From positions 1-28,681 of the IMG/VR virus record IMGVR_UViG_3300008050_000213: a stretch of DNA of 28,681 bases; one strand, written 5' to 3'. A program made the translations under genes and the position numbers. Positions 2,392 to 25,738 of the stretch are shown here, piece after piece (position 1 is the stretch's first letter; every line of letters begins with the position of its first letter). The DNA is from a virus. The notes under the pieces were generated by a model. It ran no database searches and had not been told where the DNA came from. It saw only the letters and a list, made by a program, of their open reading frames with translations.

Positions 2392-5130
2392 TTAGTGCGG
2401 TCCTACTAATATGTCTGGTTGTGTCCATACCCAAGTACAATCTTCATCACCATTAAATCGTCCCGCATAGGTTAACATTATTATATTACCACCACCACCT
2501 GTATACCAGTCATTGTTGTCTATCTTACAACCAATACCCTCAACGCCTGTATATGGGTCTGTTACTGGTACTTTGGTTGAAGGTTCAGCGCAATTGCAAC
2601 CATCAGGGCTACCTACCCTATATTCACCCAATGGGTTAACAAACCTCAAGTATGTCTCACCATCAATAATTACCGTATTGGATTCAAAGGTACTACCAGT
2701 TAATCTCCAATTACACGTTGCGAAACACACGCAATCAAGCATATAATCACCGTTATAGGTCTTACAGCAAATACTACCAGTTTGTAGACCCCCAGTTTCA
2801 CCATACTGTTGAACCACTTCTAGTGGTGTTAATGTAGTGTCAGGTTGACCATTAGAAGTGAATATGTTCATATCCACATACTCAACTGGCATCCCATCAG
2901 TCGTAGTTGGTGAGCAACACTCTGAGTTGATATATGGACTATTGTAGAATGGTGGTGAAGCTGGATTACCATTAATATCAAATAGTGGGTATTGGAATAC
3001 ATAGTACCCTTCACCCACAAGACTATAAGGGTTGAAATTCGGTGGATAAGCGCCATAATATAAAGTAGGACAATCTACTGAAGTAGCCGAGAATGATAAA
3101 TCAATCTGTATTGAGTCATCATTATCCTCTATATCGCACCCACAATCAGTGACCTCAGCCGTAGGGTCGGGGTCTTCGATTACATAACTATCTATCGTCA
3201 CACAGTCATCCAAATAGTACCCCTCTGAAGCCATATCAACGTAAGTGTCACCAGTATAATTGTTTACCAACCCTTGGTTATAATTGGTGAATAATGCTGT
3301 TGTGTCTGTATTAACCGTAGTTGATGTTACCGTTACAGGATTAAAATCTGGTATCAAAGCTCTGAATTGGTCAATAAATTGTTGACCTCTATCATAAGGA
3401 CCTGAGTGAGGGTTATTACCCTCTAATACATATTTATTGGCGTTGGCTCCACCAGTCTCTCGGTACCATCCACCACCTTTTTGGAAGTACATACTTCGTG
3501 TGTTAGGTCTAACTGCTGGGAAACCATCATTATCAATATTATATAGTGATAGGTCTGTCTCCAAATCATTCAACCTCAATACCTCTTTGAATAAATCAAC
3601 ATCCAACGGTGCATCAGCCACATATACATGCTCATTGAACTCCATTAGACCATTTGGTGCCCCTATGAATTTGATTAGGAACTCAATCACCTTTCGTTGA
3701 CCTTTAGACTTCCAAATCCATGGTGAATTCATTATCAACCTTCTCCACATCTCATACTCAGATTCAATAGGGGTCATACCTCTGCTTTGACCTGAGAATG
3801 ATGCTCTTGGTGTTGTTACATAGTTAGCCAATAAGTTGTTCTCCAATATCGTTGATACCAAATCCCAACCCAATGTCCTAGCTAAATTCTTAAGAACTAG
3901 GTCTGGCGTATTATCTCTCTTATCATAGGTTACCACATTAGCAAATGCGATACCATCGATGTACCTCTTAATATCGTCAAACTCTCTACCGTATATCCTA
4001 AGCGTCTTAGTCACCTTCTGTGCGGCAGTTTCTTCTTCACTACCATCACAATGTGGGATAGTATCAAACTCACTTATAGAATCTGACGTTAAGAACCGCA
4101 CAATAAGGTCGGACTTGGTTAGGTCGGTGTTATTAGATAATTCAATTAATTTGTTTACATATTCCTCATACTCTTTAGTGTTGAAGTCTAAGTTATACCC
4201 ATCACTTGTTGTCCACCTTAGTTTAGTTGTCTGATATAAAATGATACCATCATCACTCTCCACAGGATATCTGAATGTAATAGTGTATTTAGGTTTAACT
4301 ACCGTATTCAATAAGCTACGTTGAAAGTCTGGTAAACCATTAAAGAACTTGTCTTCCTCAGCTTTATTCGGCTTTATGTGATAAGTAATGAACTGATTCG
4401 GTGAACCAACAAATGGTTTACCCGCCACCTTAATAGATAAACTACCAGAATCGGAACTCGTTAATCCAGTAAACCCGATTATATCATACTCAGTATCATC
4501 TAATAATACACTGTACCTCAAGTAGTTAAGTGTCATGTTACGAAGGGTATTACCCTCATTGAAGGTACCTAGAATGGAACCCGTAACCAGATAATTCAAT
4601 GAATAGTTATTGATTATGGATTCATATGGCACATTGAATGTGGACGTATTAGTATTAATATCATGAGAGTAGTTTGTTACCGTATAAGCAGTCGATTGAA
4701 GACCACTTGGTAGGGTGATAATAGGTGACATGTAAATGGCTGCTACCCAGTTTGTAATAATTTCCTCTAAGTTTACCCTAACGAATTCGGTTAATGAGCC
4801 AAAGTATGCGTGGTTCAATAAGTTCCTATCATCCAGATTCAATCTAGCTATTGAATTATCTGTCAGTAGTAATGCGGTTTCAGCCTCATCTACATTAAGG
4901 GTTGATAGGTCATAGAATTGACCATACGTCCCTGTATTGTGGTTGATACTTACGCTTGGGTCAAGGTTGGTCGTAACGGAGAAGTTCCCCATTGTGAACA
5001 ACGGTAAACCACCCTCACTTGTAAGTTGATTACCAACAAGGTCAGGTGAGAAATTTCTATATTCGATGCCATCATCGTAGAAAACCCTCTGAGCGTATCC
5101 AGGTACTCTTATTCTAGGATTCTCTGCCAT
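2392..5130 (-). CDS. Tail/baseplate structural protein with Cys-rich C-terminal region
   Basis: A 912-residue protein within the structural operon. Its ATG overlaps the stop of the upstream gene by one base (TAATG), suggesting coupled translation. Around residues 475-515 lies a segment with the pattern RRLIMNSPWIWKSKG followed by FLIKFIGAP. This resembles the 'N-LP-hydrophobic-K-x-KGT ... GIP' pattern I associate with large tail proteins of other marine phages; that match is from memory and tentative. Cysteine distribution is striking: one Cys in the first 640 or so residues, then about 15 in the last 275, including ECC, ICC, CVC, CNC and CGC motifs. This suggests a separate disulphide- or metal-stabilised C-terminal module. 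Length and position fit a baseplate or tail-fibre-attachment component. No enzymatic motif seen. Confidence 0.85.
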   Translation of the reverse strand: MAENPRIRVPGYAQRVFYDDGIEYRNFSPDLVGNQLTSEGGLPLFTMGNFSVTTNLDPSVSINHNTGTYGQFYDLSTLNVDEAETALLLTDNSIARLNLDDRNLLNHAYFGSLTEFVRVNLEEIITNWVAAIYMSPIITLPSGLQSTAYTVTNYSHDINTNTSTFNVPYESIINNYSLNYLVTGSILGTFNEGNTLRNMTLNYLRYSVLLDDTEYDIIGFTGLTSSDSGSLSIKVAGKPFVGSPNQFITYHIKPNKAEEDKFFNGLPDFQRSLLNTVVKPKYTITFRYPVESDDGIILYQTTKLRWTTSDGYNLDFNTKEYEEYVNKLIELSNNTDLTKSDLIVRFLTSDSISEFDTIPHCDGSEEETAAQKVTKTLRIYGREFDDIKRYIDGIAFANVVTYDKRDNTPDLVLKNLARTLGWDLVSTILENNLLANYVTTPRASFSGQSRGMTPIESEYEMWRRLIMNSPWIWKSKGQRKVIEFLIKFIGAPNGLMEFNEHVYVADAPLDVDLFKEVLRLNDLETDLSLYNIDNDGFPAVRPNTRSMYFQKGGGWYRETGGANANKYVLEGNNPHSGPYDRGQQFIDQFRALIPDFNPVTVTSTTVNTDTTALFTNYNQGLVNNYTGDTYVDMASEGYYLDDCVTIDSYVIEDPDPTAEVTDCGCDIEDNDDSIQIDLSFSATSVDCPTLYYGAYPPNFNPYSLVGEGYYVFQYPLFDINGNPASPPFYNSPYINSECCSPTTTDGMPVEYVDMNIFTSNGQPDTTLTPLEVVQQYGETGGLQTGSICCKTYNGDYMLDCVCFATCNWRLTGSTFESNTVIIDGETYLRFVNPLGEYRVGSPDGCNCAEPSTKVPVTDPYTGVEGIGCKIDNNDWYTGGGGNIIMLTYAGRFNGDEDCTWVWTQPDILVGPH

Positions 5131-6817: not shown

Positions 6818-7957
6818 TTATCCTGATTCGCCACCAGAACCTTCACCTTCCGCTATACAATTATCACCATTAGTAAACTGTACACAGATTACATTACTAT
6901 AGTATGGGTCACCACCTAATATTATTGGTTCGCATATACTACTAACAAACCCACCAAAATTACCTAATAGTGGTTCACTCATTCCAAAACATCCACCACC
7001 AGGACCAACTGTTATATTAATAGTAGTACTTCCACTATTCCAACGCCAATTAGAAAAGTATTGGTGGTTAGTTAAGGTTAATTGTATTACACCCTGTTGG
7101 CTATTAAGGTTATACGGACACACCACATATGGGTCATTAATCGTACCAGCACCTTGTGGGGAACCATCAGGCTTCTCTGATGGTATATTAGTGGCTGCTA
7201 TGACTGGTGTTGGTGTTGTTATAAATTCAAATGATTGAGATTCAGATTGTCCCTCACAACCCTCAGCATCTGAAACCACAACATGGTACGCACCATCAGT
7301 ACCGACACCAGTTAGTATTTGGTTAGTCTCACCCACCATTAATACACCATCCATATACCATTGATACGATGCAAATCCACCTTCAGCAGTTAAAGTTGCT
7401 GTTTCACCGACACATAATATCACTGGTTCTGGTAAAATACTTATTGGTTTCTCCTGACCAGAAGGTATAGACCCGATATCAGGGTGATAGTAATCAGTTG
7501 AGAATGAACCATATACGGTAGGGATAGCATTTTCAGATATTTCAACAGTACCAACCAAATTAATCACACACTCATTTGCATCAGTAATCGTTATTGCGTA
7601 GTCACTATTACCATATAACCCCGTTTTAACTAAGTCATTGCTACCATCGAATTCCCATAATACTTCGTAGGGTGCAAGTCCACCACTAATATCTATACTA
7701 ATTGCACCAGTATTTGGTATTTCACCGCTATTCCAATCAAAACATGTAACGTGGGTGATATCTAAATTGGCTACGAAGTCAGAACATATATCACCATGAG
7801 CTTTGAAGTCCAAATCAGTGAATATCCCCATGTCATCCCCACTCTGAATCAGGTCAACCTTAAGGTATAGATTATCCACAACAATTTCACCATACAATAA
7901 CCCCTCTTCAAAGGTCTTGAGTTCTCTAAGTGATATTTTACGTTTAATTACTCTCAT
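6818..7957 (-). CDS. Structural protein with SprB-like and Ig-like adhesin modules
   Basis: A 379-residue protein. After a basic N-terminus (MRVIKRKISL) and about 60 residues likely to anchor it in the particle, residues 66-141 match the SprB repeat pattern of Bacteroidota gliding adhesins: a short strand with Cys, then G-x-I-x-I-x-I-SGGLAPYEVLW, then Y-x-I-T-I-TDANEC. Residues about 170-245 form an Ig-like module of the kind seen in Bacteroidota surface proteins: CVGETATLTA, YQWYMDG, then G-x-Y-x-V-x-VSDAEGC. The C-terminal third is Gly/Cys-rich and ends in GEGSGGESG. The ATG overlaps the upstream stop by one base (TAATG). The modules suggest a surface-exposed host-contact or glycan-binding role; that is inference. 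It has no signal peptide, consistent with assembly into virions rather than secretion. Confidence 0.85.
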   Translation of the reverse strand: MRVIKRKISLRELKTFEEGLLYGEIVVDNLYLKVDLIQSGDDMGIFTDLDFKAHGDICSDFVANLDITHVTCFDWNSGEIPNTGAISIDISGGLAPYEVLWEFDGSNDLVKTGLYGNSDYAITITDANECVINLVGTVEISENAIPTVYGSFSTDYYHPDIGSIPSGQEKPISILPEPVILCVGETATLTAEGGFASYQWYMDGVLMVGETNQILTGVGTDGAYHVVVSDAEGCEGQSESQSFEFITTPTPVIAATNIPSEKPDGSPQGAGTINDPYVVCPYNLNSQQGVIQLTLTNHQYFSNWRWNSGSTTINITVGPGGGCFGMSEPLLGNFGGFVSSICEPIILGGDPYYSNVICVQFTNGDNCIAEGEGSGGESG

Positions 7958-10630: not shown

Positions 10631-13600
10631 TTAAGCCACGGTAACAGTAACCGTCTCACTAACACAACCATTATTATCTACTACCTTAATCTCATAGTCA
10701 CCTGCTGATAAGTTTTCGAATTGATGGTTAATCAACGTTACGTTAAATTCTGGGTTACCATCCAAGTAATATGTGTATGGATAATTCGCATTAGGTGCAT
10801 GTACCGTGATAGAACCATCATTACCTTGGTCTTCTGGAACCGTAGTATAAGTAGGTGTTAGTATAGATGGGTTGGCGATGTCGTATGGTATGGGACCTAC
10901 AGAATCGTTAGCACTATCCGTTACCGTGATTTGATACCACTCAGGGTGTGGTGGTAAATTATTAACAGCATTCCAACCAAGATTAATATTATTAAAGTCG
11001 GTTGATGAGAAGGTACCCAATGGTAATGGATTAAATGTGGCTGGACACGTAACCGTAACTGAATATGGTGGTTCACCTCCCAATGGGGTTATGAATATAA
11101 CACCGTTAGGTGTATCATGACATGTAGGTTGACCCTGTGATGGTGATTCCAAATAATTATTAGGGTCGGCTAGTTGTTCCGCAGTAGCATTAGGAGGACC
11201 ATCCCAAACACTATTAACCACAAAATTCAACCCGAATGGTTCTGTTATGGTCACCGTACTAGGGCATGGTGGTGTTGTTGGGTCACCATCCTCTATTGTT
11301 ATCGTATAAACGTCTGGGGGTAAGTTACTAATAGTCTCATAATTATTAGTGGTGGTCAGCGTTTGTATGGTACCATTAGCACCCTCAATGGTTATAGTAT
11401 AAGGGGTAGCTCCACCATTTACACTAATACTCATAGAACCATCTGGTATCTGTTGAGAATTAGGGTCGTAAGGTACCGTCAGAGGGAAACCTTCCACAAA
11501 GCATGATAGAACTGCTGGGTCATCCACAATGAATGTAGTTGTTACACTTACGCCACCATTATCAATTACTGTTAAGGTGTATGCACCACCCACTAATTCT
11601 TCAATATCGCCACCTTGGTTATCACCAGTATAGGTATGTACTGTACCATCAGGATACGTCCAATGGAAAGTGTATGGGTCAGTACCACCAATAACTGAAA
11701 TATCAATTCCACCAGTTGCTGGTGTTGTTGGTGATGGTGATATGGTTGTGTTGTGAGTTACGTCACCTATAACCACATAGTTAGGGTCGTCCAATACTGG
11801 ACATGGCGCAAAATACTTCTCCCTCAATTGGCTCAATGCCGTTGATGCAGCGTTCAAACCAAAATAGAAATAGAATGAATCATCCACCCTAGGGAATCGG
11901 TTAGTAGTTAATGTTTGCCCTATATTATTATATCTGAATATGTTATAATCGTCCGTACCTATGATATCACCACAATCAGGACCGTTAGCAGATACATACT
12001 GATTGGGTGGCGTTTCATTATAATCAATACTAAATTGAGCATCTAACCAGTCACAGTTTACGTCTGCTGGTGGTAACCCGTTGGGTGTTGGGTACGTATT
12101 GAATAACGTTTCGTTATTCATCCATGCGAATACATTTCTACTGAAATGGACATCGATATCCTCATTAGTTAAAAATTGATTAGGATATCTGAATAAACCT
12201 TGAGCATCTTCATCGAAATCATCAAGACCTACACCTAATTCACACTGTCGTCTGATGTTACCACACTGTTGAGAACGTGCTTGAATGCTAATACAATTAA
12301 TATCAACGAATAGTGAATTCACCATATCTTTAGATGGGCTATCTAAACCACTGGTTACCTTATCTAAATGGTTACCCACTAATGAATATTCAGGTAATAG
12401 TGGTGGCATCTTATAAGTGGTGTCAATCCATAGGTCTTGAACGAACGGTAAACCATCGTAATGACATTTAACCGATGAACCTAAAGTCACCAAATCGCTA
12501 GCGTATAATTTACTACCTAAATTTCTACTATATGGTACATAATATAAATTATCACCGTTCTTCTCTATGAACCCCTCATTAGTCTTTCTGGAACCAACGG
12601 TATTAATGCTACAATCACCATGGTAAACACAGGTCTCAATCAAATAAACATCGTTATAACAATTATTATCAAACGCATTAGAGTCTGATGGGTTTAGGTT
12701 GTTCACACCACCACCACCACATGTCCATTCACAGAATTTCTCCCTTTCTTCACCTAATTTACTACTCTTAAATTTGAATAGTGGTGCGTATAGTGTACCA
12801 TTAATCCAATCGTTATAGAAGTCAAACTTAAGTAAGTTCAAATCCTCTACCAAACTGGAAGCCACACAATGTGTATATCCAGCATCTCCTGGTATATCCG
12901 TGTCATCCCAACCATTATCTTCTGTCGAACCAACGCAGTAAGTACTTCCGTTTGGCGGACCACCTGCTGCTGTACAACCAGGTCTACCATTATCACATCC
13001 TGGCGCATAAGGGCGATTCTGACAATCTAAAGTAATACAAGCTATATATGCAATGGGGTCTACACCGAAAAAATCTAAAAAACCATTAATAACGCTAATA
13101 ATGTCATTTATTGGTCTAATGATACTCACATTTATCAGAATTATAATAGCTGAGAGTGCGATAACCAACCCACAAATGAAGTTGAATAAAGCATCTGACG
13201 CTATATGTAATCTATTGAATGGGAATGGAGTATACTTACCTCTGGCGCTATCAACGTCTTTAATACCCACGAAACTCCTTACCCCAGAGTCTGATGGTGC
13301 TTCCGTATGTTCGTATCTGGTTATTAGATTCTTAACGGTATATATAGTATTCCATTTAAGCGTAGCGAAACTGTGAGGTTTTGTTTGGGGTCCGAACTCA
13401 AAGTCCACATCACCTAATTGGTCAGGATTATGTGGAACCAAATATTGACCTCTGGTTCTTAATTTACCTTCACCACCAGTTACATTCATACCAATCCTAA
13501 ACCTTACATCGGCTCTGGTTGGAATCCCCTTATTAGGGTCATCCGTTGGTACTAGGTCACCGTATTCATCAGTAACTCTGTAATCTATATTCATAGGTAC

Positions 13601-14569
13601 TTGGTAAGCCCACACACCGTCCTTATCAATTAGTTCACCACCTTTCACATCGAAACGTTCGATAGCACCATCTATGGTCTTTCTAATCATTTCAATCTTA
13701 CCCCTACCTGTGGTTTGCCCATCCAATACTCCCATACCATTTCTTGGTCTACAGGTTGTATTGATAGAGTTTTCTTCATTATCACCGAAGATTGAGCCTG
13801 TGAATATTGCGCTTGGTGTGACCCGAACCTTCATGTCGATATCCCTTCTGGTTATCATCACATTACAGTTATCCTCATCACCCCAGAATGGTTGAACGTC
13901 AAGTCCTATTGGACTTCTGTTGATGATGTGGTTCATTGCGTCCAGATTGTCTTCTTTTCTGAACTTACTTGTTGAATCGAAGTTCTCTGATGATGAACCT
14001 AATCGTATGTAATCGTATGGTTTTTGGCTTATTGCACCAATGTCTGACATATCAGCTTCAGCGTACATGATTTGGGCACCTGATGGTACACCGAATATCA
14101 TATAATCACCAGAAGCGTTTGTGGTTGTAGTGAACTTATAATACTTACAATACACATCCAACATCTCATCATCATCCAAGAATTGCCTCTTGTTTGGGAA
14201 TGTACCTACTGGTGTATAACATTCATCGTTAGTGTCGTTATTACCTGAAAGTAGGTTATACCTTACACCTTCACTATCAAGGTCTGCAATCGTCTCGAAA
14301 GGGTACTCACCATATATCTCTGGGTCTAACTTGTCATCTTCAGAGATTGGTACGAATACACTTACTTTAGCATTTGGAACACCGAAACCGTTATTCACGG
14401 TGACTCTACCCACAATAACACCATAATCAGCACAGAACTTAGTATAAAGCTCCTTCTGAGTTAGTTTCAACGACAATATCTCAACAAAATCGAAATCTTG
14501 TTCCATATTGATTTTGACGAACTTATCATCACCGTTAGGGGTTGTACGTATTCTTATGCTTTTACTCAT
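10631..14569 (-). CDS. Giant structural protein: beta-sandwich N-terminus, hydrophobic core segment, C-terminal SprB-like repeats
   Basis: A 1312-residue protein, the largest here. The N-terminus (about residues 50-75 and 145-180) looks like a carboxypeptidase-regulatory/Cna-B-like sandwich: GRVTVNNGFGVPNAKVSVF, later ASGDYMIFGVPSGAQ. Around residues 461-484 is a strongly hydrophobic stretch (CGLVIALSAIIILINVSI) that scores by eye as a transmembrane helix, with a second hydrophobic stretch up to about 512. Residues 510-700 are Cys-rich. The last 360 residues hold four SprB-like repeats of about 65-85 residues with cores GGTDPYTFHW, GGATPYTI, GGEPPYSV and NYPYTYYL, the last closing with Y-E-I-K-VVDNNGC. 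The ATG overlaps the stop of the small membrane protein gene by one base (TAATG). A host-surface or membrane-contact role is inferred. There is no N-terminal signal peptide. Confidence 0.87.
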   Translation of the reverse strand: MSKSIRIRTTPNGDDKFVKINMEQDFDFVEILSLKLTQKELYTKFCADYGVIVGRVTVNNGFGVPNAKVSVFVPISEDDKLDPEIYGEYPFETIADLDSEGVRYNLLSGNNDTNDECYTPVGTFPNKRQFLDDDEMLDVYCKYYKFTTTTNASGDYMIFGVPSGAQIMYAEADMSDIGAISQKPYDYIRLGSSSENFDSTSKFRKEDNLDAMNHIINRSPIGLDVQPFWGDEDNCNVMITRRDIDMKVRVTPSAIFTGSIFGDNEENSINTTCRPRNGMGVLDGQTTGRGKIEMIRKTIDGAIERFDVKGGELIDKDGVWAYQVPMNIDYRVTDEYGDLVPTDDPNKGIPTRADVRFRIGMNVTGGEGKLRTRGQYLVPHNPDQLGDVDFEFGPQTKPHSFATLKWNTIYTVKNLITRYEHTEAPSDSGVRSFVGIKDVDSARGKYTPFPFNRLHIASDALFNFICGLVIALSAIIILINVSIIRPINDIISVINGFLDFFGVDPIAYIACITLDCQNRPYAPGCDNGRPGCTAAGGPPNGSTYCVGSTEDNGWDDTDIPGDAGYTHCVASSLVEDLNLLKFDFYNDWINGTLYAPLFKFKSSKLGEEREKFCEWTCGGGGVNNLNPSDSNAFDNNCYNDVYLIETCVYHGDCSINTVGSRKTNEGFIEKNGDNLYYVPYSRNLGSKLYASDLVTLGSSVKCHYDGLPFVQDLWIDTTYKMPPLLPEYSLVGNHLDKVTSGLDSPSKDMVNSLFVDINCISIQARSQQCGNIRRQCELGVGLDDFDEDAQGLFRYPNQFLTNEDIDVHFSRNVFAWMNNETLFNTYPTPNGLPPADVNCDWLDAQFSIDYNETPPNQYVSANGPDCGDIIGTDDYNIFRYNNIGQTLTTNRFPRVDDSFYFYFGLNAASTALSQLREKYFAPCPVLDDPNYVVIGDVTHNTTISPSPTTPATGGIDISVIGGTDPYTFHWTYPDGTVHTYTGDNQGGDIEELVGGAYTLTVIDNGGVSVTTTFIVDDPAVLSCFVEGFPLTVPYDPNSQQIPDGSMSISVNGGATPYTITIEGANGTIQTLTTTNNYETISNLPPDVYTITIEDGDPTTPPCPSTVTITEPFGLNFVVNSVWDGPPNATAEQLADPNNYLESPSQGQPTCHDTPNGVIFITPLGGEPPYSVTVTCPATFNPLPLGTFSSTDFNNINLGWNAVNNLPPHPEWYQITVTDSANDSVGPIPYDIANPSILTPTYTTVPEDQGNDGSITVHAPNANYPYTYYLDGNPEFNVTLINHQFENLSAGDYEIKVVDNNGCVSETVTVTVA
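10634..11719 (-). repeat. Four tandem SprB-like protein repeats (coding)
   Basis: This is the coding region of the C-terminal repeats of the giant protein, roughly residues 951-1015, 1042-1110, 1150-1235 and 1248-1312. Each begins with a G-x-I-x-I/V strand, continues with a G-G/N-x-x-PY turn and ends with a Y-x-I/L-T/K-V-x-D strand. The repeats are diverged at DNA level, so they are old protein-level repeats rather than recent duplications. Boundaries are approximate. Confidence 0.72.
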
Positions 14570-14907
14570 TACTTAATCGGTAGTTCCTCTATTTCCGCTT
14601 TTGAGATTAGTTCCATTACATCATCCTCATCCATAGGTTCAACATCTTCTTCCTTCTCCAAAACAGTTTTAGCCGCTTGACTAACCGCCTTAAACATTAG
14701 TATAGCGTCCAACCTATCGTTCTTAATGATACCCTTGTAGAGTGCCCATACGACCAATGGTGGTGCTATGATTGGTGATAGAATAGCCAGAGTGATGAAG
14801 ATACTCCACTTCACAACTGTATTCATATTAGCATTAACCTTTGATGTCTGAACATCTTTGACTCCTGGTATCTCAAAATTGTTGTCTTTTTTACATCCAC
14901 ATCCCAT
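14569..14907 (-). CDS. Small membrane protein with MGCGCKK N-terminus
   Basis: A 112-residue protein. It starts MGCGCKK, followed by about 23 polar residues and then a hydrophobic block at residues 31-61 (FITLAILSPIIAPPLVVWAL) broken by a Pro-Pro turn, compatible with one long membrane helix or a helical hairpin. The C-terminal 50 residues are charged and strongly acidic (EKEEDVEPMDEDDVMELISK). The Cys pair is not in a lipobox, so lipoprotein processing is unlikely by the usual rule. Its stop overlaps the start of the giant 1312-residue protein (TAATG), and that protein also has a membrane-like segment, so the two may act together at a membrane. A holin is possible but unsupported, since lysis genes are elsewhere. 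Function unknown. Confidence 0.8.
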   Translation of the reverse strand: MGCGCKKDNNFEIPGVKDVQTSKVNANMNTVVKWSIFITLAILSPIIAPPLVVWALYKGIIKNDRLDAILMFKAVSQAAKTVLEKEEDVEPMDEDDVMELISKAEIEELPIK

Positions 14908-14956: not shown

Positions 14957-16777
14957 TTAATTGGTTTTCACTCTGACTTTAATATCCACACTTGGCTTCT
15001 TAATCTCAAACATGCTGATAGGGCTACCCATCAAAGCATAGTTTGGTGCCAAGTTTATTTCTCTGGAACTATCATCCAATAATGGTTGTGCTATCTCATT
15101 AAGTGAATAACCATCACCCACTTTATTGAATACCTTCAACTCCATTACGTTCAATACTCCACCCACATTGTTGATATTCTCAATCAATTGGCTCATATAG
15201 ATGTTCTCACCCATATTCCAATTATCAATGTTGAAGTATTCTTGAACTTTACTGATAACTTCTGCAATAATTTGACTTTCTGGAAACTCCTTCTCGATAT
15301 ACAACCCAACTTCAAAAGCTAAGTTAATTATTTGACCATTGGTTACCTCTACGTAATCATTCATCATTCTGTAATCACTCAAGTATGTGCCAATATTATC
15401 TCTTAAGGTACTGGTAGATTGATTAGTCAATGAACCATCACTACCCAAGGATAGAATATATATCGCAACTTTATTCTGATTCTCCAATACACCACATCTA
15501 AATGGTATTCCGAACTCACCATCCATTAAAGCAATTCTGGTTTGATAATCCTTTATGGTTACACACCGTTCCTGTGAAGCGAAATTGTAACGGGTTAGGT
15601 TACGTATTTCCTCAACTGAAGGTTCATCCTTTCCTCCCAATGCTGGAAGTGGGTTATTCACCGACAGTGAACCTCTAACTTGTTGGTTTACACCATTATC
15701 CACACCGCTTACAGTCATATTAAGATTATTAACCGTATTCAGAACGTTAGGACCGATGTTGGTAGATTTACCACCACCAACTCTATAGCTAATGAACATT
15801 GTTGTACTTGGGCTTGGTGTCACACCCATACTTAGGTTGTTAATGAAGTCACCAATCCTACTCACCAACGCTGGGTCAACATCAAAATCACATAGTGAAC
15901 CGATATCTTGTGAACCACCACCGAAGATTAATTTAGTAAAACCTTTGTCGGTATATTCACGAATAAATCGCTGGTCTACCTTAATCCACTGTCCAACTTC
16001 AACAGAATTGTTGTCACTAACCAGTGTGTTATTTACAACGAAAACCTTATCTTCTGCCAATGCATTCATTTCGTACCATCTTAGGTCACTATCTAAATAT
16101 TGGTCAACTGTAGGCGTGGAAGTAAAATTGGTTCCTTCAAGTGTTATGATTGAATTAATTGAGATTACATCAGTATCTGGTAATATCAACTCAAAAAATG
16201 GTATCACATCACCTTCACTCATAACTCTCTTGAATGTCTTGGTCACACCATTGGTGACTAGCTCCCTTTTTGTTATGGTATAATTTATTATGTTATTTGA
16301 AGCGTCTATATTTGGGATAATCAATCTATTTGGTATACCCCCTGCCGCAAATGGTGATGAGAAATCTATATCATCTGTGGTCTCGAAAACCTTTCCAGCA
16401 CCTGATACTTGTGCACCTCTTCTAATAATTGGAGCGTAGGTGATGTCCCACGTATCACCGAATACTGGTACCGTAACGCTGAAGTCGCATATGGTAACTG
16501 ATGGTCGTTTACCTGGTATTTTAAGACCAAATGTACGTGCCATACTCAATACGCTGGATTTTTCCTGTGCGTAGTTAATTTGAGTTTCTTGGAACATCCT
16601 GTCGGTGTGGAATGATAACATATCACCAACCGCAGCATTAAGTTCCAATAGCATCATACCAACAGAGGCATCATTGAAATCATTGAAGATGTCTGGGTAG
16701 TATTGTCTAGCGTAGTTGACCAGTTCACTTCTAACATCAGCGAAGTTTCTAGCAAAATAGGGTATTTTTTGAGCCAT
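14957..16777 (-). CDS. Baseplate wedge protein, gp6/baseplate-J-like
   Basis: A 606-residue protein; T4 gp6 is about 660. The opening matches the gp6/baseplate-J family style: IPYFARNFADVRSELVNYAR, then YYPDIFNDFNDASVGMMLLE, then LNAAVGDMLSFHTDRMFQE, where the plate-joining helix and the 'D-x-S-x-G-M-x-L-L-E-L' block are characteristic. A beta-rich middle (RRGAQVSGAGKVFETTDD) and a later region (EIRNLTRYNFASQERCVTIKDYQ) match the family pattern in which the domain resumes after 'A-R-x-R-A-V-T-x-x-D-Y'. In T4 this protein dimerises to link wedges around the hub. It is the first gene after the RNR terminator and heads the structural operon, preceded by a 15-base motif shared with another intergenic region. 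The ATG is chosen because the family N-terminus starts here. Confidence 0.9.
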   Translation of the reverse strand: MAQKIPYFARNFADVRSELVNYARQYYPDIFNDFNDASVGMMLLELNAAVGDMLSFHTDRMFQETQINYAQEKSSVLSMARTFGLKIPGKRPSVTICDFSVTVPVFGDTWDITYAPIIRRGAQVSGAGKVFETTDDIDFSSPFAAGGIPNRLIIPNIDASNNIINYTITKRELVTNGVTKTFKRVMSEGDVIPFFELILPDTDVISINSIITLEGTNFTSTPTVDQYLDSDLRWYEMNALAEDKVFVVNNTLVSDNNSVEVGQWIKVDQRFIREYTDKGFTKLIFGGGSQDIGSLCDFDVDPALVSRIGDFINNLSMGVTPSPSTTMFISYRVGGGKSTNIGPNVLNTVNNLNMTVSGVDNGVNQQVRGSLSVNNPLPALGGKDEPSVEEIRNLTRYNFASQERCVTIKDYQTRIALMDGEFGIPFRCGVLENQNKVAIYILSLGSDGSLTNQSTSTLRDNIGTYLSDYRMMNDYVEVTNGQIINLAFEVGLYIEKEFPESQIIAEVISKVQEYFNIDNWNMGENIYMSQLIENINNVGGVLNVMELKVFNKVGDGYSLNEIAQPLLDDSSREINLAPNYALMGSPISMFEIKKPSVDIKVRVKTN

Positions 16778-18977: not shown

Positions 18978-19364
18978 TTAGATGTTAATGACCACAAAGT
19001 CGGTTTCAACGAAGACATCTTCGGTGATACTGTAATCGATTCTTATAGTAGCTTTGTGCTCATTATTGGTGTCCCGATTGACCTCAACCTCGTTTATAGT
19101 TAGGTTGGGAATATATTTGGTTACGGTTTCTTGAATGTCTGATTTTATTTCTGATTGTAATTTCGAATCGTTAGGTTCAAAAATGAATTTCATTAAATCA
19201 GTACCAAAGTCTGGCATGTATAACCGTTGACCTCTCTGGGTCAGAATTAGGTGCATGAGGTCTGCTTTTACTGCTCTTGAATCTGTGTCGTTCAATTGTA
19301 AAAAGAAACCTTTATCACTGTCCTTAAACGGATAATCGATGTTTATATACTTGCCTGCTGCCAC
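18978..19364 (-). CDS. Baseplate wedge protein, gp25-like
   Basis: A 128-residue protein; T4 gp25 is 132. It belongs to the GPW/gp25 family, which forms part of the contractile-tail wedge core with gp6 and gp53 and triggers sheath assembly. Family features seen: a short N-terminal arm, DADLMHLILTQ-type helix (here KADLMHLILTQRGQRLYMPDFGTDL), then FIFEP and a C-terminal beta-alpha-beta region. The conserved 'L-L-T-x-x-G-x-R-x-x-x-P-x-F-G-T-x-L' block is the strongest evidence. The start is GTG; no in-frame ATG lies upstream and the family N-terminus begins here. It sits 38 bases after the helicase stop, inside the replication operon, which is an unusual place for a baseplate gene. Confidence 0.9.
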   Translation of the reverse strand: MAAGKYINIDYPFKDSDKGFFLQLNDTDSRAVKADLMHLILTQRGQRLYMPDFGTDLMKFIFEPNDSKLQSEIKSDIQETVTKYIPNLTINEVEVNRDTNNEHKATIRIDYSITEDVFVETDFVVINI

Positions 19365-24970: not shown

Positions 24971-25738
24971 TTAGTATTCAACCTCATCCTCTTCGAAATT
25001 ACTGAAACTATTTTTTACGTCTGTTGGTGAATAATCATCAACGTCCTGTTTAGTTAACGTATATTCTTTGGTACCACCATCCTGTTCTGATGATGGAATC
25101 GCCAATTTATCTTCCTTTTCCGACCAATAATCACTCAATTTAATGTTGTATGGGTAAGAATCTAACGACCTCATCTCAATTTGTTCTTCAGGTGTTGGGT
25201 TACGTCTCTCAATATCATGCTCCAATTCTACCACCTTGTTTCCAAGGTCATCAATCTTAGCACTTGTTTGTTGCATAGCACCCATTTGGTTTTGTAATTC
25301 AGCAAATCCATTAACAAGAGCATCCAGTTTCTGGTTAGCCATATCTGAAGATTGTTTAGCTTCTTCTGTACTATCTACTAGTTCAGTTACATCCAATTCC
25401 ACTTCATCTTCTGCTGGTTCCATAGGTTCATCCATTGGCATCTCATCACCACCGAAACCACCTTCGTCTCCACCTTCTTCATCTCCAAATCCTTCATCGT
25501 CTCCCAAACCAAGTTCGTCTTCCATTCCAGCAACCTCATCACCACCTAAATCTTCACCACCTTCTTCGTCACCGAAACCACCTTCATCACCAGCATCATC
25601 TGCTGGGGCTTCATCACCAAACCCTTCATCATCTGCTGGGTCTTCATCGTCTTCAGTCGTAACACCGTAGTATGAATACTCGGTGATATTCATCATTCGC
25701 TTTGCTTCCTCCATAAGGAGTTTATCTTTATTCTTCAT
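24971..25738 (-). CDS. Highly acidic Gly/Asp/Glu repeat protein with C-terminal coiled coil
   Basis: A 255-residue protein in three parts. Residues 1-30 form a short helix (MEEAKRMMNITEYSYYG). Residues 31-115 are almost entirely Asp, Glu, Gly, Phe, Ala, Met and Pro, with irregular repeats of GFGDE and GGDE and no basic residues. Residues 116-180 form a likely coiled coil (VTELVDSTEEAKQSSDMANQKL through IDDLGNKVVELEHDIE). The rest is a polar tail ending EEDEVEY. This resembles scaffold or prohead-core proteins and also DNA-mimic proteins, but no specific family is recognised. It starts 5 bases after the 60-residue gene and ends at a terminator. The opening residues MKNKDKLLMEEAKRMM resemble the N-termini of cleaved phage core proteins; cleavage is speculation. 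Confidence 0.83.
   Translation of the reverse strand: MKNKDKLLMEEAKRMMNITEYSYYGVTTEDDEDPADDEGFGDEAPADDAGDEGGFGDEEGGEDLGGDEVAGMEDELGLGDDEGFGDEEGGDEGGFGGDEMPMDEPMEPAEDEVELDVTELVDSTEEAKQSSDMANQKLDALVNGFAELQNQMGAMQQTSAKIDDLGNKVVELEHDIERRNPTPEEQIEMRSLDSYPYNIKLSDYWSEKEDKLAIPSSEQDGGTKEYTLTKQDVDDYSPTDVKNSFSNFEEDEVEY
25439..25624 (-). repeat. Irregular GFGDE/GGDE-coding low-complexity repeat
   Basis: The region encodes at least four GFGDE or GGFGGDE units separated by acidic residues. DNA units are short and imperfect, so this is low-complexity coding sequence rather than a tandem-repeat element. Confidence 0.7.

Follow-up and report, generated by a model that had tools for sequence, protein, structure and literature searches.

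The SprB repeat family (Pfam PF13573) is known from the Flavobacterium gliding adhesin SprB and from other T9SS-exported surface proteins, and the locus described here raises the question of what such repeats are doing at the end of a large phage protein. The window analyzed, the whole 28,681-base virus record IMGVR_UViG_3300008050_000213, comes from an uncultivated T4-like phage. It contains an ORF for a 1312-aa protein (10631..14569, minus strand, as are all window features given below), composed of a core and a C-terminal Ig-like tail, in which a first-pass annotation had recognized four tandem SprB-type repeats.

Profile searches of the tail confirmed that assignment. When residues 941-1312 of the proposed 940-1312 span were searched, PF13573 matched over four stretches (E = 5.8e-11) with 42.3 bits against a cut-off of 28, and the match to the entire 1312-aa protein had an E value of 1.2e-8. 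The single repeats are weak, at 16.7-20.3 bits each, and the cut-off is passed only by their sum. We also built a bacterial SprB profile, using 14 repeats taken from two SprB-type ORFs of bacteria; it scored 74 bits on the tail compared to 10 bits for the best of 3000 shuffled tails. Five SprB places were found in the window. Four of these (11657-11719, 11378-11443, 11060-11131, and 10754-10825) fall within the 1312-aa ORF, and the fifth (7655-7714) lies in a second ORF encoding a 379-aa protein (6818..7957) with two SprB/Ig-like domains at residues ~68-133 and ~180-239. The bacterial profile gave the latter protein 41 bits, weaker than its score on the 1312-aa tail. The 379-aa protein has a gene of its own, chiefly in the close clade. 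It was recognized in 17 of 78 related loci, in some of them within an ORF that also matches the 247-aa neighbor, and its homologue in locus L035 has Ig_7 and SprB matches just under cut-off. No direct repeats were found at the DNA level in the tail, in keeping with the earlier remark that the four copies have diverged.

Structure prediction likewise bore out the repeat assignment. The AlphaFold2 models were produced from alignments of 34 and 20 sequences, and that of the tail was all-beta, with tandem Ig-like folds at a pLDDT of 79 and four beta-sandwich units of about 75-90 residues. D1 (residues 930-1019; 11513..11782), D2 (residues 1021-1111; 11237..11509), and D4 (residues 1235-1312; 10634..10867) were modeled confidently, D3 (residues 1147-1234; 10868..11131) was partly of low confidence, and the linker joining D2 and D3 (residues 1112-1146; 11132..11236) had a pLDDT of about 45-60. 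The array had originally been placed at 10634-11719; its extent stands except for the start, as D1 begins at 11782, about 60 nt before 11719. The best Foldseek matches of the tail model were to units of the Aureispira grappling hook protein GhpA (4.3e-11), and VIA-align placed it among tandem FN3/Ig proteins with Z of about 10-11. Across the whole array TM-scores were low and rmsd high, as expected if the angles between domains differ. The bacterial SprB profile matches GhpA too, but this is a 5898-residue bacterial appendage with about 16% identity, and the likeness is one of fold and profile.

We then considered what membership in the SprB family signifies here. A profile of nine phage tails, searched against solved structures, matched phage decoration proteins (T5-type, at 4.5e-7), followed by a neck whisker at 0.0014 and Hoc at 0.015. 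The bacterial SprB profile matched GhpA (7e-7) together with the neck whisker and the decoration proteins found by the tail profile, and it gave a weak match to RemZ (E 0.1); tblastn with two bacterial SprB repeats found RB43-type fibritin whiskers. Judged by these profiles, bacterial SprB repeats and phage Ig decoration domains overlap. Because they cross-match, "SprB" in this protein denotes an Ig-like family and not a gliding adhesin, the identity suggested in the first-pass annotation. That identity is further contradicted by the lack of a T9SS sorting domain in the 1312-aa protein, where CHU_C was not found and TIGR04183 reached 15.8 bits versus a cut-off of 23 at a position that was not C-terminal. 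Weak Por_Secre_tail matches in the tails of relatives proved to be internal Ig strands. The tail shares with PF13573 proteins an over-cut-off profile match, tandem Ig-like repeats, and the G-x-I, GG-x-x-PY, Y-x-I-x-V-x-D pattern, but differs in its baseplate operon, its four diverged repeats, the missing sorting domain, and its cysteines. All 14 bacterial repeats have an invariant pair (C7 and C57), whereas the phage tails have a conserved pair in D2 only (C98 and C177), with one cysteine in D3, one in D4, and none in D1. With the T5 decoration protein, T4 Hoc, and RB43-type fibritin whiskers it has in common Ig-like domains carried on a phage protein and similarity at the profile level. Unlike them, it is attached to a core from the baseplate operon that has no known relatives, and its domains are of the SprB subtype and not of the Big, I-set, or FN3 classes listed for phage Ig-like domains (PMC9022992). 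The label "SprB repeat" is already attached to one phage protein in the BFVD/UniProt tables.

The T4-like setting noted in the first-pass annotation was supported by gene content. PHROG matches identified a gp25-like baseplate wedge protein (18978..19364; 1.6e-21), a gp6-like baseplate wedge protein (14957..16777; 6e-18), ribonucleotide reductase, DnaB-like helicase, UvsX-like recombinase, exonuclease, and ssDNA-binding protein. The 1312-aa ORF is bordered on either side by genes for the phage baseplate and replication, in place of a bacterial gliding-gene neighborhood. The nearest cultured relatives of the window gp6 are those of Flavobacterium phage immuto (28% identity) and Microcystis phage Mel-JY01 (27%). 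In all 78 related loci gp6 adjoins the gene for the 1312-aa-type core, and the order gp25-gp6-core-596-272-247-307-912 is retained in loci of sufficient length. The last of these genes encodes a 912-aa protein (2392..5130) that is a remote homologue of a large Mel-JY01 protein (hhalign probability 96%, E 2.3e-9). Immuto gp109 (L098:19267-23064) is also a remote relative of the 912-aa protein, and when a small set was searched with the Ig tail profile, the C-terminal part of gp109 gave a weak match (E 0.0038).

The core itself (residues 1-925; 11795..14569) defines a family of uncultivated T4-like phages, with relatives in 78 IMG/VR loci at alignment identities of 64-32%. It closes with the motif DSFYFYFGL..STAL...REKYFAPC (11801..11884), of which FYFYFG...YF..C is near-invariant among homologues. 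A tblastn search of 50,697 phage records found nothing for the 1312-aa protein, a distant member of the family was likewise negative, and the sole full-length match to the core was the uncharacterised A0A8S5LA66 of Myoviridae sp. ctPuP5 (BFVD, E 1.7e-80), a member of the same core family with a TM-score of 0.7 and 30% identity. The AlphaFold2 model of the core had a pTM of 0.81. Within it, a subdomain at residues ~48-250 (13820..14428) is similar to the transthyretin-like, regulatory-like domain found in carboxypeptidases, with 82 residues aligned by VIA-align at rmsd 2.4 and Z 9.4. At E<=0.01, Pfam CarboxypepD_reg recognized 18 of the 34 cores, and its match to the window protein was under the cut-off. 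The whole core had no match in the PDB, although its fold may still be a known one. Equation of the core with the T4 wedge proteins gp7, gp8, or gp10 was rejected, as ten T4 tail proteins, each represented by a single sequence, gave hhalign probabilities of <=1.5%, and the core was not homologous to the gp6-adjacent proteins of immuto or Mel-JY01, which match the window 912-aa protein instead. Since there is neither a recognizable T4 homologue nor a whole-core match in the PDB, the place of the core in the particle is deduced from its operon position.

Two conserved features of the core count against a baseplate protein. A long hydrophobic, transmembrane-like helix is modeled at residues 460-500 (13070..13192), with a maximum 19-residue Kyte-Doolittle mean of 2.81 at residue 461 and similar values in nearly all homologues, and about ten core cysteines are near-invariant. 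These features are unexplained by a baseplate role. They would fit a membrane protein of the infected cell, displaying its Ig tail on the cell surface and forming no part of the virion, and the gene directly upstream (14569..14907), recognized in 15 of the 78 loci, encodes a 112-aa protein that likewise contains a hydrophobic stretch. We nonetheless consider such a protein quite improbable, as the gene adjoins gp6 in every relative and the protein has neither a signal-peptide-like N-terminus, by eye, nor a T9SS sorting domain.

Comparison of relatives showed that the core-plus-tail anatomy is modular and that the tail is the faster-evolving part. The slot after the end-of-core motif held SprB in 24 of 34 tails (E<=0.01), BACON in locus L047, and nothing in L036, so that a conserved phage protein carries an Ig-like fold at its end in some relatives and lacks it in others. 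The L036 protein, of 954 aa, stops at the end-of-core motif, and its core and neighboring genes are retained. The L047 protein (L047:11538-14423) belongs to another sub-clade, and its tail ends in a BACON domain over cut-off in place of SprB repeats. In all diverged Ig-tailed pairs the tail diverged faster than the core, by 66 versus 42% for the window protein and 78 versus 41% for L046/L047; the reverse held for L051/L052, where the tail measures just 41 aa. In the pair L054 and L056 the cores are identical and the tails are 232 and 690 aa, possibly owing to a frameshift or an assembly difference.

The age of the domains was estimated with profiles of D1-D4 built from nine close tails and run on tails left out of the building; these are few profiles and not a tree. 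Among 17 held-out Ig-bearing tails, the D1 profile was the best for the first domain in 16 and the D2 profile for the second in 11. The third and later domains vary and often score best with the bacterial SprB profile, reaching 65 bits in the third tail domain of L040. D1, and largely D2, appear to predate the radiation of the clade and to be old in the phage lineage.

A Bacteroidota host is likely for this phage, since among the three phyla sampled SprB repeats exceeded the cut-off only in Bacteroidota. Of 148 genomes drawn from the phylum to which a Paludibacteraceae MAG belongs (Bacteroidota, going by its title), 33 had such repeats, compared to none among 295 others, 146 from the phylum of a Prochlorococcus genome and 149 from that of a Clostridiales genome; the phylum labels were taken from record titles. 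Two other routes to the host were set aside. Bacteroidetes-type promoters were uninformative (1 match versus 0.88 expected), and the MAGs matching the core were too mixed, including Bacteroidales, Paludibacteraceae, Clostridiales, Prochlorococcus, Mycoplasmatota, and Wolfebacteria.

The concentration of SprB repeats in Bacteroidota, together with the preference of the third tail domain of several relatives for the bacterial SprB profile, would be consistent with capture of the repeats from a Bacteroidota adhesin, to be employed as receptor-binding or host-mimicking modules. The first-pass annotation had described the repeats as host-derived, but the phage clade as a whole has D1, and D2 for the most part, as positional orthologues. 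Capture by this phage, and a recent capture from the host in particular, is therefore not supported. Nor did composition indicate a recent gain of the tail, whose GC (41.5%) and GC3 (28%) are ordinary, inside the spread of the other window genes. T9SS signals are absent, and transfer could have run either way, given that the SprB profiles find decoration and whisker proteins of phages too. We regard capture as improbable.

We favor, at a probability of roughly 0.6, the interpretation that the tail forms an exposed array of accessory Ig domains carried by a baseplate protein, with a probable role in adsorption. The 1312-aa protein would most likely be a structural component of the baseplate or tail, in which assembly would be the task of the conserved ~925-residue core, with the four SprB-family Ig-like domains projecting from it as a C-terminal rod. 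The rod would probably make weak, low-specificity contact with surface polymers of the Bacteroidota host or with the matrix surrounding it, raising the chance that the true receptor-binding fibers engage. Phage Ig-like domains occur on tail fiber, baseplate, tail tube, and capsid proteins, are considered to help adsorption, and are non-essential where tested (PMC9022992), and they can increase infection efficiency or bind mucin glycans (PMC9022992; PMC9853417). The tail-less L036 protein is suggestive of a dispensable tail. The tail may reach the cell surface or glycan layer, as was first supposed, and a slot with SprB, BACON, or nothing is compatible with such a role.

The way D1 and D2 keep their positions would also suit a structural role, in which the Ig domains would act as spacers or docking sites that place the 379-aa Ig protein or a fiber and would make no host contact. 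D1, and for the most part D2, remain the same domains in the same order even in distant relatives, close relatives share a conserved junction of core and tail, and the 379-aa protein provides a second Ig protein in the same operon. However, L036 is missing the whole tail yet keeps the core and its neighbors, and tail length and the distal domains are variable; we judge a purely structural role to be somewhat unlikely. A further possibility, which we consider highly doubtful, is that the phage displays host-adhesin-type Ig repeats that bind adhesin filaments or their ligands like-to-like, with moving gliding adhesins as the first attachment site. In the literature collection searched, no papers linking sprB mutants to phage resistance were found.

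Under the accessory-array interpretation, the SprB subtype joins the Ig-like domains already catalogued in phages, and does so in a clade of uncultivated T4-like phages that is widespread. The profile comparisons also show, at that level, a kinship between a Bacteroidota adhesin repeat and the decoration domains of phages. The large uncharacterised baseplate-operon family, with its variable C-terminal slot, makes adsorption through accessory domains testable in environmental Bacteroidota phages.

SprB repeats were also found within another phage genome. The 642-kb phage record LR756502.1 encodes a 1670-aa protein (L100:6207-11219) with 13 strong SprB repeats, PKD, and a C-terminal CHU_C domain, seemingly a T9SS-exported surface adhesin, whose gene neighbors include topoisomerase II and a PHROG 35217 member. 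It differs from the window protein in its 13 close-to-bacterial repeats, its PKD and T9SS sorting domains, and its lack of a core-family match. We searched for hypervariability generated by a DGR, and no RVT_1 was detected in 23 records (the window and 22 relatives, which may be fragments); the control was positive in three genomes. Elsewhere in the window, the 255-aa protein at 24971-25738 has one half that is a very acidic, Gly/Asp/Glu-rich low-complexity sequence encoded by short DNA repeats.
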